Assembly (NCBI GenBank): GCA_903871875.1
Contig: CAIQIR010000107.1
Span: forward strand, 62,001-126,000
Length of the DNA: 64,000 nt
Direction: 5' to 3'
Source: an uncultured Schlesneria sp.
GTDB taxonomy: Bacteria; Planctomycetota; Planctomycetia; Planctomycetales; Planctomycetaceae
Shown: in pieces, positions 53,428-59,999 of the stretch
Layout: every line of letters starts with the position of its first letter
Position numbering within the stretch: the stretch's first letter is position 1
Made by a program: the position numbers and the translations under genes
Notes under the pieces: model-generated
Databases searched by the model: none
Seen by the model: only the letters and a program-made list of their open reading frames with translations
What the model was told of the DNA's origin: nothing

Positions 53428-55614
53428 TCACGGCCCTTTTATTAGGCCGTTGTCGCGCTCAATTTGCTCTTCCAAGCGCTTAACTTGGGCGTCCCGCTGC
53501 GTCTCGGCTCCCGATGCCCGGTATTCTGTCTTACGCCCCGTCAGCCGTTCTACCCAATAATCCGCCAGTTCGCGGATCTCGAGACGCGTGCTTCGCATCC
53601 AGTTCGTCAACATCAGTGGAGTAATCTTGGCGCCTTTGACATCGTCGCGTGAAAACCCCCAAAGCATCCGGAAAACCGCATCCGCATCCGCCGGTGGATA
53701 ATGCGTCTCCAATTCCGCTTTAAGTAACGTCCCGTAACTGGCGTTCATCGGTAACGACTGTCGAATTCCGTCGCGCGCGGCAAATCGAGCCTCCTCGTGA
53801 GGACACTCAGCCAATGTCTCCACCAGTGCGGCACAATTGTCAGTCGCAGAAAGACAGCGCGCAGCAAGCTCGGCAATCTTGGGGTTTTTGGAGTTTTTCA
53901 CGAGCGTCAGCATTGTCTGTTCAACCGGTTGATCGACGGCGAACGATTTCTCAAAAATCGATTGATATCGCCTTAAGGGTTGCATTCGACGTTTCCCGGC
54001 CTCACACCAATCGGGAACGGAAGGAAACACCATCGGCACGGAACGGACGGTGGCCGCAGCTCGTTCAGGGATGATATTCAGCGCCGAGAATTGGCCAATC
54101 TCCTGAACAATTCCTGCCCGGTTCGTCCACCTCGCGTCACCGGAAGTCACGTACAGCGTTGCCACGTACCATTGGTAATCGTTCAGTTTCTGAAATTGGG
54201 AAGGCTCTCGGACGGTCACTTCCAAACCACAGACGGTGTCCCCCGATAGCAGATCCAGCTTCCACAGATCCTCGCCAATCGCGATGCCGATCGTCCCATG
54301 ACCATTCTCCTCTTGTCGACTTGTCTGAAGAATCATTCTTCCGCGTACGACGTTAATTCCCTGCAGGGCCGCTTCGCTCGGCAACAGAAGCTGACCAACC
54401 GTCTCACCGACCATGGTCACTCGAACTCCCGCTTTGTCGAGTTCCAGCACCCCATCAAACGGTTCGAGATTGGCGATGATCTCACCCGGCTTGAGTTCGG
54501 ATCGATGTGGAACCATAAACCAATGGCGCCGGTCGTCGTCCAATTTAATGACGACTCCCTCGTTGGAGGTGTAGGCGACCTGCAAATCGGACAAGACTTC
54601 TTGAGGAAGCGTCGCCGACTTGGCCGCCGGAGCGGTTTCGACGGCTGCAACGTCTTTGGCCGGCAAAGCCGGAATCGGAACTTTGTTGTTGGAATCCGCC
54701 GCGACTTTGTCCAACCCCGGTTTGGGCATCGGCAGATCGGAATCATCCTTAGGAGGGGCCGGATCCAAACCGTCAGGCAGTTTCGATCCATCAGAGTGGG
54801 GCGCCGCCGGTTCTGGCAGAATCACGCTCTCGCGCTCCACGACTGCGACTTCAGGTGTCGCCTGCATTGGTTCAGACAGAACGACATCTTGGTCCGCGGT
54901 GTCGGTCGTCTCGTTCTTTTCGCGAACGACCTTCCGTTGCATCTCGATATTGGCCTGCTGGAACCCGGTCCACAGCCCCGGTGTCAAAATCACCGCGCAG
55001 ACGACCACGAGCAGGACCACGATCATCGAGGGAAAAAGTCGCTTGGGCCATGGTGCCGGCTTCAAATAGTCCGGCACGGCCGTGATCCGCTCATCTTCAA
55101 AACGGCTCGATTTCCCCGCCTCTCCCGGATTCGCTGCCGGAACATTTCGTGTGGAAATCGATTCGGGAGTATGCGACTTGATCGTTAGCGAGGTGTCATT
55201 CGGAACCGCCAACTGCGACGACACCTCAACCGGGCCGAGCGCGTACAAGCGCTCACGACTGCCATCCGACACCTCCGTTGTCTCTCCGAGAATCAGCGTC
55301 AAAACCTGATGACAAGCTGCCGTTTCAGCCAGCATTTCGTCCGAGGCGAGCAGCACTCTCTCCACGTCCGCATACTGGTCGGCTGGCAACGCATTGTCCA
55401 GATATTGTGCGACGATGTTTGGATCAATTCCCATCTCCGGGCCAAAAACCTCCGGAGCCTTCAACCGTCGACGTCGCATGACTTCACGGATGCGGCTAAC
55501 CAAAAGTTGAGCCATCGGACTCTCTTGAATTTTCTGTCCGATGTTCTGCGTATCCGCAGGTGAAAGCACATCGTCCAGGTACGCCAGCAACGTTCTCAAA
55601 GTCAGTCGCATCAT
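53428..55614 (-). CDS. Large membrane-anchored protein, planctomycete-type
   Basis: A 728-aa protein. The N-terminal ~130 residues are helical with two LAYLDD-like/QYLDN repeats (LAYLDDVLSPADTQNIGQKI, VAQYLDNALPADQYADVE), a layout often seen in planctomycete anti-sigma-like or putative zinc-finger relatives, but without the Cys/His zinc ligands. A single membrane helix (SMIVVLLVVVCAVILTPGL) lies near residue 200. A Pro/Asp-rich linker follows, then beta-rich sequence (roughly 340-500) and a helical C-terminal part with TLVKNSKNPKIAELAARCLSA. N terminus inside, C terminus outside is likely. It carries no recognised catalytic motif. Two ATGs at 55614 and 55611 are possible starts. No nearby sigma factor gene was seen. 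Confidence 0.75.
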   Translation of the reverse strand: MMRLTLRTLLAYLDDVLSPADTQNIGQKIQESPMAQLLVSRIREVMRRRRLKAPEVFGPEMGIDPNIVAQYLDNALPADQYADVERVLLASDEMLAETAACHQVLTLILGETTEVSDGSRERLYALGPVEVSSQLAVPNDTSLTIKSHTPESISTRNVPAANPGEAGKSSRFEDERITAVPDYLKPAPWPKRLFPSMIVVLLVVVCAVILTPGLWTGFQQANIEMQRKVVREKNETTDTADQDVVLSEPMQATPEVAVVERESVILPEPAAPHSDGSKLPDGLDPAPPKDDSDLPMPKPGLDKVAADSNNKVPIPALPAKDVAAVETAPAAKSATLPQEVLSDLQVAYTSNEGVVIKLDDDRRHWFMVPHRSELKPGEIIANLEPFDGVLELDKAGVRVTMVGETVGQLLLPSEAALQGINVVRGRMILQTSRQEENGHGTIGIAIGEDLWKLDLLSGDTVCGLEVTVREPSQFQKLNDYQWYVATLYVTSGDARWTNRAGIVQEIGQFSALNIIPERAAATVRSVPMVFPSVPDWCEAGKRRMQPLRRYQSIFEKSFAVDQPVEQTMLTLVKNSKNPKIAELAARCLSATDNCAALVETLAECPHEEARFAARDGIRQSLPMNASYGTLLKAELETHYPPADADAVFRMLWGFSRDDVKGAKITPLMLTNWMRSTRLEIRELADYWVERLTGRKTEYRASGAETQRDAQVKRLEEQIERDNGLIKGP

Positions 55615-55927
55615 GTTCGAGCCCTCTGAACCCGGATCGACAATTGATCCTGATTCACGTTCCGTGTTGGTATACGATCACCCCGATTCGGGGTAACGTG
55701 ACGGTCCATCAAGCATTTGCCGTCACACCTAAATAGTGTGCGTCGCAAGTTTGACTCCGTACAAGTTTCTTTGATTTCTTGGTCAGTTTTTGGGATCGTG
55801 TCATTGGGGTACCGGCCGTTCATCTAGACTGTACCTGCTGAGGAAGGCCGGCTCTAAAGTGCAATTCACACACGATGACAACAGGGCCGAGCCCCTCGCA
55901 TTTGTCCGCGCACGCGAAAGGCGATTC
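55615..55927. other. Divergent promoter region, 313 bp
   Basis: It separates the divergent large membrane protein and ThuA genes. It contains a small palindrome ACCCCGATTCGGGGT near 55681. No open frame is convincing and no promoter could be assigned. Confidence 0.5.
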
Positions 55928-56788
55928 ATGTCCGCTCAGCGATTGGCCACGGCTCTTGTGGGCGCAGTCCTTTTCGCCCTGCCTTGCTCGATACCAGTCG
56001 GTGCTCAAGACAGACCAACAACTGCGTCCCGCCCCAAACGACTTCTTCTGCTCGCCCAAAGCCCAGATTCACACCCCAAGACAACTCATGAATACCTGGA
56101 GGGTAATCGAGTCATCGCCCGGTTGCTGCAGGGGCATCAATCGATCCAAACCATCGTCGTCCTCGCCGACAGTCCGTGGCCAGATGGCCCTGAGCTTCTG
56201 GAGAACGCCGATGGCGTCTTACTCTTTCTGACTGAGGGTGCCAAATGGATCAGCGCGGACGACAAACGTTTGGCAGCGTTTCAACGTCTGGCTCAACGGG
56301 GTGGCGGGTTGACATGCTTGCACTGGGGAATGGGAACTCGCGACACAGTTCCGGTCACCAATTTCGTGTCATTGTTTGGTGGCTGTCACGGGGGGCCGGA
56401 CCGAAAATACAAAGTTACCGATTTTCAAGTCTCCGTCTCTTCTTCCTCGCATCCGACGACGTCGGGGATTCTGCCGTTCGAAATCCACGACGAGTTCTAC
56501 TACGACTTAAAGTGGCCCGCTTCTCGCGTCGGCCTCACACCGCTGCTTCACGTGCGACTCGACGATGTCGACTTTCCCGTAGCATGGGCATGGGAGCGTC
56601 CCGACACGGGTCGCTCGTTCGGCTTCACGGGGCTTCACTTTCACGAAAATTGGAGGCGGCTGGAATATCGACGCCTGGTGGCCCAAGGAATTCTATGGAC
56701 CTTGCACGAGCCAATTCCTGCAGCCGGACTGACGCTCGACGTTTCTGATGCGGAACTCACTCTCCCAGCGACATGTCCAGGTAAGTGA
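55928..56788 (+). CDS. ThuA-domain exported protein
   Basis: A 286-aa exported protein of the ThuA (glutamine amidotransferase-like) family, common in planctomycetes near sugar dehydrogenases. After a signal peptide (ATALVGAVLFALPCSIPVGA) the mature part has KRLLLLAQSPDSHPKTTHEY, a GxLLFLTEGAKW strand, RGGGLTCLHWGMG at the nucleophile-elbow position (no cysteine nucleophile), and GRSFGFTGLHFHENW near the end. The start is ATG 55928, which begins the signal peptide; the frame runs further back to 55790. The parS-like site at 56792 follows 3 bp after the stop. Confidence 0.85.
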   Translation: MSAQRLATALVGAVLFALPCSIPVGAQDRPTTASRPKRLLLLAQSPDSHPKTTHEYLEGNRVIARLLQGHQSIQTIVVLADSPWPDGPELLENADGVLLFLTEGAKWISADDKRLAAFQRLAQRGGGLTCLHWGMGTRDTVPVTNFVSLFGGCHGGPDRKYKVTDFQVSVSSSSHPTTSGILPFEIHDEFYYDLKWPASRVGLTPLLHVRLDDVDFPVAWAWERPDTGRSFGFTGLHFHENWRRLEYRRLVAQGILWTLHEPIPAAGLTLDVSDAELTLPATCPGK

Positions 56789-56791
56789 TTC

Positions 56792-56807
56792 CGTTCCACG
56801 TGGAACG
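56792..56807. other. parS-like site 1
   Basis: CGTTCCACGTGGAACG, a perfect palindrome containing GTTCCACGTGGAAC, an exact match to the degenerate parS core GTTYCACGTGRAAC. It lies just after the ThuA gene, 93 bp before the fusion gene. Confidence 0.8.
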
Positions 56808-56862: not shown

Positions 56863-56878
56863 TGTTTCACGTGGAACG
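56863..56878. other. parS-like site 2
   Basis: TGTTTCACGTGGAACG, 14 of 16 to the consensus TGTTTCACGTGAAACA and an exact match to GTTYCACGTGRAAC. It lies in the upstream region of the MnmC(o)-MnmM gene, 6 bp before the TTG start, so ParB binding could affect expression. Confidence 0.85.
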
Positions 56879-56884
56879 GAGCAA

Positions 56885-58597
56885 TTGACGCCGGTGACAT
56901 CTCATTTCGACGCCATCATCATCGGGCAAGGCTTGGCGGGCACAGCCCTCGCCTGGACGTGGAAGTGGTCGGGCGCCCGAGTTCTGGTGCTCGATCGCGA
57001 AACAACCGTGACTGCGTCAAAGATCGCGGCCGGCCTAATCACTCCTATTACGGGTCAAAAGCTGGTGACGACTTGGCGTCACATGGAACTCTGGCCCGCC
57101 GCGGTGGCATTCTATCGCCGATTTGAAGCCGAAACGGGAACCTCGGTTTTCCGGCAGCCTTCCATGGTCCGGCTGTTTGCCGACGAAGGCGAAGTTGCGA
57201 TTTTTGAACGCCGCCGTGCGGCGGGAGCATTTGACGGGTTAATCAACCAACCGGTGCCACTTGTGGACAACGAATGGTTCTTTGCCGAACGAGGTGGGTG
57301 TGAAATGTGTCCCGGCGGGCAACTCGACATCCCTGCCTACTTGAAGACGTCGCGAGCTCACTTTGCCCGTGAGGGAGGCTATCTCCCCACAGATGTGGAT
57401 GTGTCACGTGAAATCGAGTTCACCGCCGCCGGAGTACGACTCCAAGGTCTCGGTGTGAGCGCAAACGCGATCTTCTTTTGCCAGGGATTCGATACCAGAG
57501 ATAACCCCTGGTTTCGAGACGTCCAATTCAAACCGGCCAAAGGCGAAATTTTGACGCTGCGAATCCCCGGCCTTGCAGAACACCGGGTGATCCATCGCGG
57601 CATCTGGCTGGCCCCTGTGGGCAGTGAACTATTCCGGGCGGGCTCGACTTACAATTGGAACTGTCTCGACATTCAACCGACGTCTGCCGCTCGCGACGAA
57701 ATCGCTGGGCAGCTTCGCGAGTTTTTACGGCTGCCCATTGAGGTCGTTTCGCACCAAGCCGCAGTCAGGCCAATTCATCGAAACCAGTATCCAGTCATTG
57801 GACGTCACCCGCTGCAGTCCCGGTTAGGTTACTTCAATGGACTGGGATCGAAGGGATCGTTACATGCTCCTTTTTTTGCGAGGCAACTCGTCTCGTACTG
57901 GAACGGTGAAACGAGCATCGATCCCGATGTTGATCTGAATCGCAAAACGAAGTGGCATGGAAATCTCCATACCAGGCCCCTTCCAGACGATCCACGAGCG
58001 ACTCCGCCAATCCACGTGGAACGCCCCCGGAAACGGTCACTGACAGACCAAGCTCAGGACGCGGTTCGCGAGGTTCTGCAGACCGGGGACACTGCCATTG
58101 ATGCAACCACCGGTAACGGACACGACACTCAGTTTCTCGCCGAGCGAGTGGGCACCCAGGGGTTGGTCTTCGGGTTTGATATCCAGTCGGCTGCCCTTGA
58201 AAAGACCAAGTTGCGACTGGCGGACGCGAAATTGCCAAACGTGGTCCTGATCAACCAGAACCACAATCAACTGAAGACACTGATTCCACCAGGGCTACGA
58301 GGTGGAATCGCAGCAGTCATGTTCAACCTGGGATATCTTCCAGGCGGCGACAGATCCATCGTCACCCACCCGGAATCGACCCGTACCGCCATCACCGCTG
58401 CCACGGAAATATTAAGGCCGGGGGGGCTGGTGACAATCCTCGCCTATACCGGACACGGCGGTGGTGCGAATGAGGCCGAAGTTGTGGAATCGGTGCTCAA
58501 ATCGCTTTCGACCACCGAATTCGAAGTCACCCAGATCGAGAGCCAACCCGGCCGCACACCGGGACCACGATTGTTTCTTGTGAAACGGCGGCAATAG
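56885..58597 (+). CDS. Fused FAD oxidase (MnmC(o)-type) and MnmM/YtqB-type tRNA methyltransferase
   Basis: A 570-aa bifunctional protein. Residues 1-~350 are a D-amino-acid-oxidase-fold FAD enzyme: GQGLAG at 14-19, TASKIAAGLITPITGQKLV at ~43-61, and HRNQYPVIGRHP and YFNGLGSKGSLHAP near the end. This pattern is that of MnmC(o)-like oxidases that remove the carboxymethyl group of cmnm5U34. Residues ~383-570 are a class I methyltransferase of the MnmM/YtqB family: DATTGNGHDTQFLAE at 406-420 and FNLGYLPGGDRSI at 480-492, which methylates nm5(s2)U34. The two steps together make mnm5U34 in tRNA. E. coli MnmC does both with a different methyltransferase and the opposite order. The start is TTG 56885 or GTG 56894; two parS-like sites lie in and two before the gene. 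Confidence 0.85.
   Translation: MTPVTSHFDAIIIGQGLAGTALAWTWKWSGARVLVLDRETTVTASKIAAGLITPITGQKLVTTWRHMELWPAAVAFYRRFEAETGTSVFRQPSMVRLFADEGEVAIFERRRAAGAFDGLINQPVPLVDNEWFFAERGGCEMCPGGQLDIPAYLKTSRAHFAREGGYLPTDVDVSREIEFTAAGVRLQGLGVSANAIFFCQGFDTRDNPWFRDVQFKPAKGEILTLRIPGLAEHRVIHRGIWLAPVGSELFRAGSTYNWNCLDIQPTSAARDEIAGQLREFLRLPIEVVSHQAAVRPIHRNQYPVIGRHPLQSRLGYFNGLGSKGSLHAPFFARQLVSYWNGETSIDPDVDLNRKTKWHGNLHTRPLPDDPRATPPIHVERPRKRSLTDQAQDAVREVLQTGDTAIDATTGNGHDTQFLAERVGTQGLVFGFDIQSAALEKTKLRLADAKLPNVVLINQNHNQLKTLIPPGLRGGIAAVMFNLGYLPGGDRSIVTHPESTRTAITAATEILRPGGLVTILAYTGHGGGANEAEVVESVLKSLSTTEFEVTQIESQPGRTPGPRLFLVKRRQ
57400..57415. other. parS-like site 3 (weaker, within gene)
   Basis: TGTGTCACGTGAAATC, 13 of 16 to the parS consensus but off the GTTYCACGTGRAAC core on both arms. 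Inside the fusion gene. Confidence 0.45.
58008..58023. other. parS half-site 4 (weak, within gene)
   Basis: CAATCCACGTGGAACG has an exact right half (CACGTGGAAC) but a degenerate left half. It lies in the linker region of the fusion gene. Listed because it sits among stronger sites. Confidence 0.3.
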
Positions 58598-58801: not shown

Positions 58802-58817
58802 GGTTCCACGTGAAACC
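58802..58817. other. parS-like site 5, beside parB
   Basis: GGTTCCACGTGAAACC, 13 of 16 to consensus and an exact match to the GTTYCACGTGRAAC core. It lies 17 bp beyond the parB stop codon. Confidence 0.85.
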
Positions 58818-58833
58818 GCCCATCTTTCCGATC

Positions 58834-59778
58834 TCACGCCGCTCGTTGCAATTTTCCGACGATCCGCTCGAAATCATCGTTCGATGCAAAGTCGATGACA
58901 ATTTTACCTTTGTCCTTCGCCTTGCCCGACAATTTGATTTCGACGTTGGTACCCAGCCAGTCACGCAACTGATTTTGCAGCCCGGTGACATGCGACGTGT
59001 GATTCGCAACAACGGCAGGTTGATTCTCGCCAGGACCGGGAAACGGAACAACATCAGCGTCTTTCGCGACCAGCAATTCGCGAACGGCTTCTTCCGTCTT
59101 GCGGACGGACAGATTCTCTTTCTGAATACGCTGCGATAGATTGACCTGGGCTTCCTCGTTCTTAATCGCCAGGATGGCCCGGGCATGCCCCGCGCTAATC
59201 TTATCCGAGCGAAGATCGCTCTTCACGGTTTCGGGCAGCTCAAGGAGTCGCAGCATATTGCTGACGGTCGAACGTTCGAATGACAATCGACGAGCCAAGT
59301 CTTCGATCGTGCAACCGAATCGCTTCAGATAGTCCTGAAAGGCGATTGCCTTTTCGAGCACGTTCAGATCTTGGCGCTTCAGATTCTCTTCGAGCGCGAC
59401 TTCACTGACCTGTTGATCGGTCAGGTTCAGAACACGACAGGGGACTTGACGAAGCCCCGCCTTCTTGGCGGAAATCAATCGTCGCTCTCCGGCGATCAGC
59501 TGATATCCGTCACCAGCCGGGCGAACCAATAGCGGCTGCAAAACGCCGTGCTGACGGATACTGTCAACCAGTTCATTGAGGGCCGTCTGGTCAAAATCCT
59601 GGCGAGGTTGGAATGGGTTCCGATCAATCAGTTCCACGGAAATTTCCGTTTGATCGCCAGCTGTCAGTTCATCGGTTCCCCCCATGGGAGCCGTGCCGAG
59701 CAGTGCATTCAAACCGCGTCCGAGCCGCCGTCGGGATGGTTCCTGGAGGCCGTGTTCTTGACCAAGCTGCTCGTCCAT
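58834..59778 (-). CDS. parB: Chromosome partitioning protein ParB
   Basis: A 314-aa ParB/Spo0J family protein, a CTP-dependent DNA clamp that binds parS sites and helps segregate chromosomes. Domain order: a basic N-terminal RRRLGRGLNALLG that normally contacts ParA, the nuclease-like domain with IDRNPFQPR and the CTP motif GERR at 97-100, a helix-turn-helix region with IEDLARRLSFERSTVSNMLRLLELP, and the C-terminal dimerisation domain (FASNDDFERIVGKL). ATG 59778 has AAGGAA upstream; the longer frame to 59886 lacks support. parA is not adjacent. Candidate binding sites lie just downstream (58802) and up to 3 kb away (56792 onward). Confidence 0.95.
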   Translation of the reverse strand: MDEQLGQEHGLQEPSRRRLGRGLNALLGTAPMGGTDELTAGDQTEISVELIDRNPFQPRQDFDQTALNELVDSIRQHGVLQPLLVRPAGDGYQLIAGERRLISAKKAGLRQVPCRVLNLTDQQVSEVALEENLKRQDLNVLEKAIAFQDYLKRFGCTIEDLARRLSFERSTVSNMLRLLELPETVKSDLRSDKISAGHARAILAIKNEEAQVNLSQRIQKENLSVRKTEEAVRELLVAKDADVVPFPGPGENQPAVVANHTSHVTGLQNQLRDWLGTNVEIKLSGKAKDKGKIVIDFASNDDFERIVGKLQRAA

Positions 59779-59999
59779 GATTCGTTCCTTGGCAAAAAGC
59801 ATAATCGCCGCACAATCTTTGGCGGCGAGATTTAACAGACAAAGGTGAGACGCTGGATGGGACCGCGATTCTAATCGCGACCGCAAAAAAGGGACAAGAG
59901 GAAATTACTAAGTCGTGCGGCACAATTTGGGGCCGCTGCCAAAATGCGTTCCCAACCAACGTTCTCAAGCCGCTTCAAACGATTTCCTCCGGACCAATC

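Follow-up and report, generated by a model that had tools for sequence, protein, structure and literature searches.

Here we describe a gene that joins an oxidase to a tRNA methyltransferase in one reading frame, located in a 64 000-nucleotide stretch of DNA (the window) from an uncultured Schlesneria sp. of the Planctomycetota. The gene occupies positions 56885–58597 on the plus strand. Its product is very probably a two-step enzyme of the tRNA wobble uridine, in which a flavin adenine dinucleotide (FAD)-dependent oxidase would convert 5-carboxymethylaminomethyl-(2-thio)uridine at position 34, cmnm5(s2)U34, to the 5-aminomethyl form, nm5(s2)U34, and a methyltransferase of the MnmM (YtqB) family would complete the 5-methylaminomethyl form, mnm5(s2)U34. 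A preliminary description of the window had predicted the completion of mnm5U34 by this fusion; the comparisons reported here lend that prediction strong indirect support, with corrections to the classification of both halves.

In the proposed reaction sequence, cmnm5(s2)U34 would be made by MnmE and MnmG, MnmA adding the 2-thio group. The N-terminal FAD domain would then oxidize the N–CH2 bond of the glycine-derived carboxymethyl group to an imine, which would hydrolyse to nm5(s2)U34 and glyoxylate, and oxygen would re-oxidize the flavin. The C-terminal MnmM domain would flip out U34 and move a methyl group from S-adenosylmethionine (SAM) onto the new amine, and a flexible linker would tether the two active sites. 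The substrate of the oxidase would be cmnm5U34 in tRNA, and both steps would take place on the same tRNAs. By computation we observe the domain content and order, the conserved catalytic residues, the fold, the presence or absence of the pathway genes, the co-occurrence of both halves in the family of the source genome (f1), operon overlap and repeated fusion. We assign both halves to one pathway because two catalytic halves are found together with the upstream genes, no known alternative for either of the last steps was found in the source genome (G000), co-occurrence in f1 is all-or-none, the genes overlap and the fusion recurs.

The translation of 56885–58597 is uninterrupted (570 codons plus stop, TTG start, no internal stop), and a candidate ribosome-binding site (GGAG, 56878–56881, plus strand, assigned by inspection) lies three bases before the start. 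All features given below for the gene are on the same strand. An FAD oxidase domain of the glycine-oxidase/DAO fold (56885–57949, residues 1–355) is followed by an interdomain linker (57950–58036, residues 356–384) and the MnmM methyltransferase domain (58037–58594, residues 385–570). Pfam places DAO at residues 9–336 (84.8 bits, cut-off 27.9) and PF06962, named as a putative rRNA methylase and the family that includes MnmM, at residues 428–564 (133 bits, cut-off 22.7). The AlphaFold model, built with 41 aligned sequences, contains two folded domains with a mean predicted local distance difference test score (pLDDT) of 91.5; in the linker the pLDDT falls below 50 at residues 362–367 and 370–382. 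With a predicted template modelling score of 0.74, the relative orientation of the domains is not interpretable. The gene is a genuine fusion, with homologous in-frame fusions elsewhere. Chance or an assembly artefact was rejected as its source because in-frame MnmM fusions are carried by 22 of 80 loci collected with the oxidase only and by four of the 28 f1 genomes, which likewise argues against a sequencing artefact. In 20 of the 25 other fused proteins examined, a pattern search located both motifs, and in all of these 20 the oxidase is N-terminal to MnmM.

The identity of the C-terminal half is the more readily established. Residues 386–568 score 183.8 bits with the NCBIfam model of MnmM (NF053511, cut-off 135), which places them in the MnmM family. 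Solved MnmM structures match this half; the complex of Bacillus subtilis MnmM with the tRNA-Gln anticodon stem loop (PDB entry 8h0s) does so with 36% identity and a root-mean-square deviation (rmsd) of 1.7 Å. Three motifs carry the functional residues. DATTGNGHDTQ (58100–58132, residues 406–416) contains Asp414, equivalent to B. subtilis Asp34. FNLGYLPGGD (58322–58351, residues 480–489) contains Asn481 and Tyr484, equivalent to Asn101, the proposed general base, and Tyr104. YTGH (58445–58456, residues 521–524) contains Tyr521 and His524, equivalent to Tyr141 and His144, which contact U34. All five residues are thus conserved in the alignment, and over 66 MnmM sequences the residues contacting U33 and U34 are retained as Asp34 in 65, Asn101 in 65, Tyr104 in 58 (Phe in five), Tyr141 in 63 and His144 in 61. 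The MnmM/YtqB assignment of the preliminary description and the first two motifs, which it had named, therefore stand. For the B. subtilis enzyme, the mutational data in Cho et al. (2023; PMC9976899) give very low activity for K11E, D34A, N101A, N101D, Y104A, Y141F, H144A and K110E, and an activity reduced about threefold for Y104F.

The N-terminal half belongs to a distinct clade of glycine-oxidase-like enzymes that stands beside MnmC1 and ThiO. In a tree of 38 sequences, the oxidase family (20 sequences, support 100/99), MnmC1 (five, 100/100) and ThiO-type proteins (13, 100/99) form three separate, supported groups. A tree with a single long-branched MnmC1 draws that sequence beside the oxidase family and differs in its deep order; the deep branching among the three groups is unsure. 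NCBIfam models give only matches below their cut-offs on this half, the best being ThiO (TIGR02352, 61.2 bits against a cut-off of 250.8). Together with the separate clade and the presence of a separate ThiO elsewhere in the genome (C101:47665–48708, 279 bits, over cut-off), this led us to reject ThiO of thiamine synthesis as its identity.

Several motifs set the family apart or relate it to known enzymes. GQGLAG (56924–56941, residues 14–19) would contain the dinucleotide-binding glycines for FAD, judging from the motif; Gly14 and Gly16 align with Gly271 and Gly273 of Escherichia coli MnmC, which Table 2 of PMC3648344 puts under SAM binding. AAGLITPITG (57026–57055, residues 48–57) is a signature of the oxidase family and is absent from all 12 ThiO sequences compared; 80 of the 93 oxidase-family sequences were found by a pattern containing AGLxTPxTG, so that its presence is partly built into the sample and divergent members escape detection. 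Arg295 (57767–57769), a candidate carboxylate-binding residue, aligns with E. coli MnmC Arg567, and its position holds an arginine in 92 of the 93 sequences and a gap in the other. Arg567 is listed as FAD binding in PMC3648344. GLGSKG (57839–57856, residues 319–324) resembles ALGSRG of E. coli MnmC1 and not the GH(F/Y/H)RxG of ThiO: the motif [NA][AG][LF][GAS]S[KR]G occurs in 88 of the 93 sequences, and GH[FHY]RxG in all 12 ThiO sequences and in none of the 93. The likeness to MnmC1 is partial, because GHGSRG and AHGTRG replace ALGSRG in two of the five MnmC1 sequences compared. Of the residues conserved in bifunctional MnmC (Gly271, Gly273, Gly287, Gly518, Arg567, Gly578, Gly619 and Arg653), seven of eight match, the glycines being common across the superfamily; Arg653 aligns beyond the end of the oxidase domain.

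The chemistry of a solved relative suggests how such a fold could act on the wobble base. CmiS2 converts an N-carboxymethyl amine to an amine and glyoxylate, according to PMC11284099, and by analogy the oxidase of the fusion may cleave the same kind of bond in cmnm5U. Monomeric sarcosine oxidase, whose substrate is an N-methyl amine, is also among the fold matches. This would suit an oxidase that works on tRNA in another way, for example by oxidative demethylation of mnm5U, so that the fusion combined an eraser with a writer, or one that acts on a subset of tRNAs only. We regard such a role as most improbable, given that the arginine aligned with MnmC Arg567 is retained in 92 of the 93 sequences and that no other known candidate for the step from cmnm5U to nm5U was found in G000, neither a PF05430-type MnmC nor a TIGR01212 match over cut-off.

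The remaining pathway genes were sought in the source genome, which is 7.6 Mb in size and 99.99% complete. It contains one copy of the fusion protein, MnmG (811.9 bits), MnmA (333 bits) and MnmE (216 bits over profile positions 10–446 of 446). The MnmE score lies below the curated cut-off of 252.6, as it does in 25 of the 27 genomes searched. The three upstream genes whose presence the preliminary description had suggested checking are accordingly all there. No second MnmM was found in the genome search, and PF05430, the MnmC2 methyltransferase, matches neither the fusion protein nor the genome; an alternative methyltransferase of either kind was therefore rejected, and the separate mnmC or mnmM for which a check had also been suggested is absent. 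TIGR01212, the MnmL-type radical SAM family, gives only matches below its cut-off in G000.

Both halves travel together in the relatives of this genome. The phylum sample comprised 392 genomes, 50 of which matched at E 1e-5 or better, and f1 is represented by 28 genomes. Oxidase and MnmM are both present in 23 of these and both absent in the other five. They are fused in four (G000, G291, G307 and G344) and adjacent on one strand in 16, where 15 pairs overlap by 4, 7 or 13 bases and one is separated by 14 bases; open reading frame (ORF) starts in this survey and in that of the oxidase loci are the longest mechanical starts. TIGR01212 exceeds its cut-off in none of the 28 f1 genomes. Twelve other genomes of the class, none with an MnmM over cut-off, include 11 in which TIGR01212 does so; the count is three among five further genomes chosen for having MnmM. 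An E. coli control also matches TIGR01212 at E 1e-20, showing the family to be wider than MnmL, so that its absence is informative and its presence less so. PF05430 exceeds the Pfam cut-off of 22 bits in four of 45 genomes and is clear in one of the same class (G274, 67.8 bits).

Some MnmM genes of the survey stand in other settings. Two genomes (G107 and G071) have MnmM without an oxidase match at E 1e-5 and without TIGR01212 over cut-off. None of the four neighbouring ORFs scanned beside MnmM in G107 and G024 is an oxidase; they encode a kinase, a HAD protein, an O-antigen ligase and a DUF7133/cytochrome c protein. In G259 (L043:4976–7096) MnmM is the C-terminal part of a 706-residue frame in which Pfam matches nothing over the first 500 residues; this frame is either another fusion or has an over-long start, and its start is doubtful.

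The association extends beyond the phylum. A scan of genome contigs with an alignment of the oxidase only gave 177 confirmed matches, from which 80 loci were kept. MnmM is fused to the oxidase in 22 of these, adjacent in 38, nearby in two and not found in the examined flank in 18. Adjacent here means a gap below 300 bp and includes overlaps of longest-start ORFs of up to 493 bp, and for L088, counted among the 38, the MnmM assignment depends on a match of 54 bits. The records are labelled Planctomycetota, Verrucomicrobia, Hyphomicrobiales, other Alphaproteobacteria, Acidobacteria bacterium Mor1 and one Bacteroidales metagenome-assembled genome (MAG), that is, four or more labelled phyla, where the names of MAG loci are depositors' labels to be taken with caution. 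Complete chromosomes with the pair are those of Rhizobiales bacterium IMCC20636 (adjacent) and Limnoglobus roseus (overlapping by 4 bases), and the record of Acidobacteria bacterium Mor1, titled a partial sequence, carries a fusion. Plasmid records gave ten matches, all to the MnmM half only.

On a tree of oxidases from 26 fused and 44 adjacent loci, parsimony requires eight changes between the two states, or at least four if only starred branches are counted; this is a quick tree supported by the Shimodaira–Hasegawa-like approximate likelihood ratio test only, on which fusion and fission are not distinguishable. The convergent gene fusion put forward in the preliminary description is borne out to the extent that the change recurs. 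For 38 of the 80 loci, the genomes were also checked for other genes. MnmM is found in 25 of them at E 1e-15 or better, in 23 over cut-off, and TIGR01212 is found in none at E 1e-20.

Several observations weigh against the two-step assignment. The MnmC(o)/MnmC1 model TIGR03197 gives 44.5 bits on the oxidase half, far under its cut-off of 174.2, and a profile of the oxidase family, run against solved structures, scores 91.6 bits with CmiS2, 59–69 bits with glycine oxidases and 38.6–45.6 bits with MnmC. The mean net charge of the oxidase family (−0.8, compared with −5.3 for ThiO and −3.2 for MnmC1) is weak support at best for RNA binding. In three f1 genomes (G024, G283 and G321) the genes are unlinked, and the oxidases of G283 and G321, counted as present, are divergent (32% identity to that of the window, about 100 bits). 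Weak matches to PF05430 over the Pfam cut-off were obtained in f1 genomes G385, G048 and G069 (23–25 bits, in frames of 1061, 1054 and 1054 residues), which also have oxidase and MnmM, and in one of the 38 oxidase-locus genomes (G419, 35.7 bits, a 692-residue frame), from which locus L113 with its adjacent pair comes. The chief point against strict pairing is that 13 of these 38 genomes, whose completeness is not given, have no MnmM match. They belong mostly to one Gemmataceae/Isosphaeraceae group, plus a Hyphomicrobium and an Afifella MAG (L057, L063, L064, L065, L069, L070, L074, L075, L079, L096, L098, L109 and L128), and may end the pathway at nm5U or rely on a different methyltransferase. 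In the MnmM half, Lys11 and Lys110 of the B. subtilis enzyme align with Gln391 and Arg490, so that neither lysine is kept.

The two lysine replacements could mean that the MnmM domain has shifted its substrate and that the fusion finishes a different wobble nucleoside of the xm5U type. The residues that contact U33 and U34 are retained across the 66 sequences, and the fold matches that of B. subtilis MnmM bound to the anticodon stem loop, which makes a shifted substrate very unlikely. Lys11 is not a strict mark of the family, because its site holds His in 44 and Gln in 19 of the 66 sequences (Lys in one, Arg in one and a gap in one) and is also His in PDB entry 3eey.

The scores of the oxidase half raise a different possibility, namely that the FAD domain oxidizes a small molecule such as glycine, sarcosine or another N-carboxymethyl amine, that its fusion to MnmM serves co-regulation only and that nm5U comes from MnmEG and ammonium. 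CmiS2, glycine oxidase and iminodiacetate oxidase rank first in a Foldseek search with the oxidase half as they lead the profile matches, no MnmC chain appears before rank 49 of the 50 best Foldseek matches, and the oxidase-only genomes would fit as well. MnmEG can form nm5U using ammonium, as described in Cho et al. (2023; PMC9976899). Set against this, the thiamine role is already filled by a separate ThiO (above cut-off in G000 and in 25 of the 33 genomes searched), fusion with MnmM has taken place at least four times, loci labelled as several phyla carry the two genes as overlapping operons, and co-occurrence with MnmM is all-or-none across the 28 f1 genomes; we consider a small-molecule oxidase unlikely. 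A structural match of the FAD domain to amino-acid oxidases, which the preliminary description had named as evidence against its reading, is thus partly observed, the best matches being of glycine-oxidase type. The two-step reading is not refuted by it, because E. coli MnmC1 is itself closest in structure to glycine oxidase (reported in PMC3648344). A true MnmC(o) orthologue was nevertheless rejected on the profile score and the separate clade: the term 'MnmC(o)-like' used in the preliminary description fits the predicted job of the oxidase and not its membership. Since the oxidase is a distinct glycine-oxidase-like clade, its relation to MnmC(o) would be one of functional convergence and not of the same protein.

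Compared with known systems, the fusion is predicted to perform in one chain the same two steps as E. coli MnmC (MnmC2 and MnmC1), likewise by pairing an FAD oxidase with a SAM-dependent methyltransferase. It differs in that the methyltransferase is of another family, the oxidase is a separate clade, the linker is predicted to be disordered where MnmC crystals have a rigid interface, and the domain order is reversed. This reversal, noted in the preliminary description, agrees with the N-terminal methyltransferase of E. coli MnmC given in PMC3648344. The same description called the methyltransferase non-homologous to that of MnmC; it is of a different, non-orthologous family, yet both are SAM-dependent methyltransferases and not unrelated in fold. 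The MnmM and MnmC methyltransferases both have class I folds. Poor sequence homology and an rmsd of 5.06 Å between the two are reported in Cho et al. (PMC9976899).

In B. subtilis and Staphylococcus aureus, MnmM (YtqB) is a stand-alone protein with the family, the fold and the main U33/U34-contacting residues of the C-terminal domain described here, which is fused behind an oxidase and has Gln391 and Arg490 in place of Lys11 and Lys110. The MnmL–MnmM pathway shares the methylation by MnmM, but its oxidation step is carried out by a radical SAM enzyme of TIGR01212 type instead of an FAD enzyme. ThiO, CmiS2 and iminodiacetate oxidase, which among solved structures come closest in fold to the FAD domain, have small molecules as substrates. 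In Neisseria gonorrhoeae (L142, NZ_CP119142.1) a 539-residue MnmC1-type ORF lies about 3 kb from an MnmM-like frame with one in-frame stop, so MnmC1 and MnmM sequences can co-occur in one genome.

MnmL has reportedly been described for Gram-positive bacteria by Jaroch et al. in 2024 (J Bacteriol); the abstract of that work is said to mention fusion proteins, and a prior description of an oxidase–MnmM fusion is possible. In the literature searched (MnmM, MnmL, MnmC and mnm5s2U, the MnmL paper not covered) no description of such a fusion was found. MnmM was reported by Cho et al. (2023; PMC9976899), where the MnmC(o)-like enzyme of MnmM organisms is stated to be unknown at the time, mnmC(o) is given as absent in alpha-proteobacteria, among others, and the expected fusion or operon of an oxidase with MnmM is described as not found among 198 candidate genes.

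The chromosomal surroundings of the gene have features of their own. Three exact GTTYCACGTGRAAC sites, parS-like palindromes, flank it at 56793–56806, 56864–56877 and 58803–58816, the second within its leader, and no exact site arose in 100 shuffles of the sequence. The motif resembles a ParB site in its likeness to the parS consensus. A parB gene (58834–59886, minus strand) adjoins the site at 58803, and eight related loci (L050–L056 and L123) share the motif at their oxidase gene or close to it, which places the fusion gene within or next to a chromosome partition site. Upstream lie a ThuA-domain gene (55790–56788) and a gene for a 728-residue protein without a Pfam match (53428–55614), relatives of which are found near the oxidase in the Schlesneria loci L050–L055 and in L123. 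Conserved neighbours of the oxidase genes are mostly lineage-specific.

Taken as a two-step enzyme, the fusion most likely represents a third route to mnm5(s2)U34. It also seems reasonably likely that this clade of oxidases was recruited independently for the step from cmnm5U34 to nm5U34, which would make it the third solution alongside MnmC(o) and MnmL. Going by the labels of the records, it would range across Planctomycetota, Verrucomicrobiota, Alphaproteobacteria and one or more Acidobacteriota, encoded in an overlapping operon with MnmM and joined to it in several separate fusions, and oxidase-only lineages would stop at nm5U. The oxidase is a concrete, clonable candidate for the cmnm5U step in groups in which no MnmC(o) or MnmL has been found. 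If this is true, one and the same bifunctional tRNA enzyme would have arisen at least twice by the joining of different parts.

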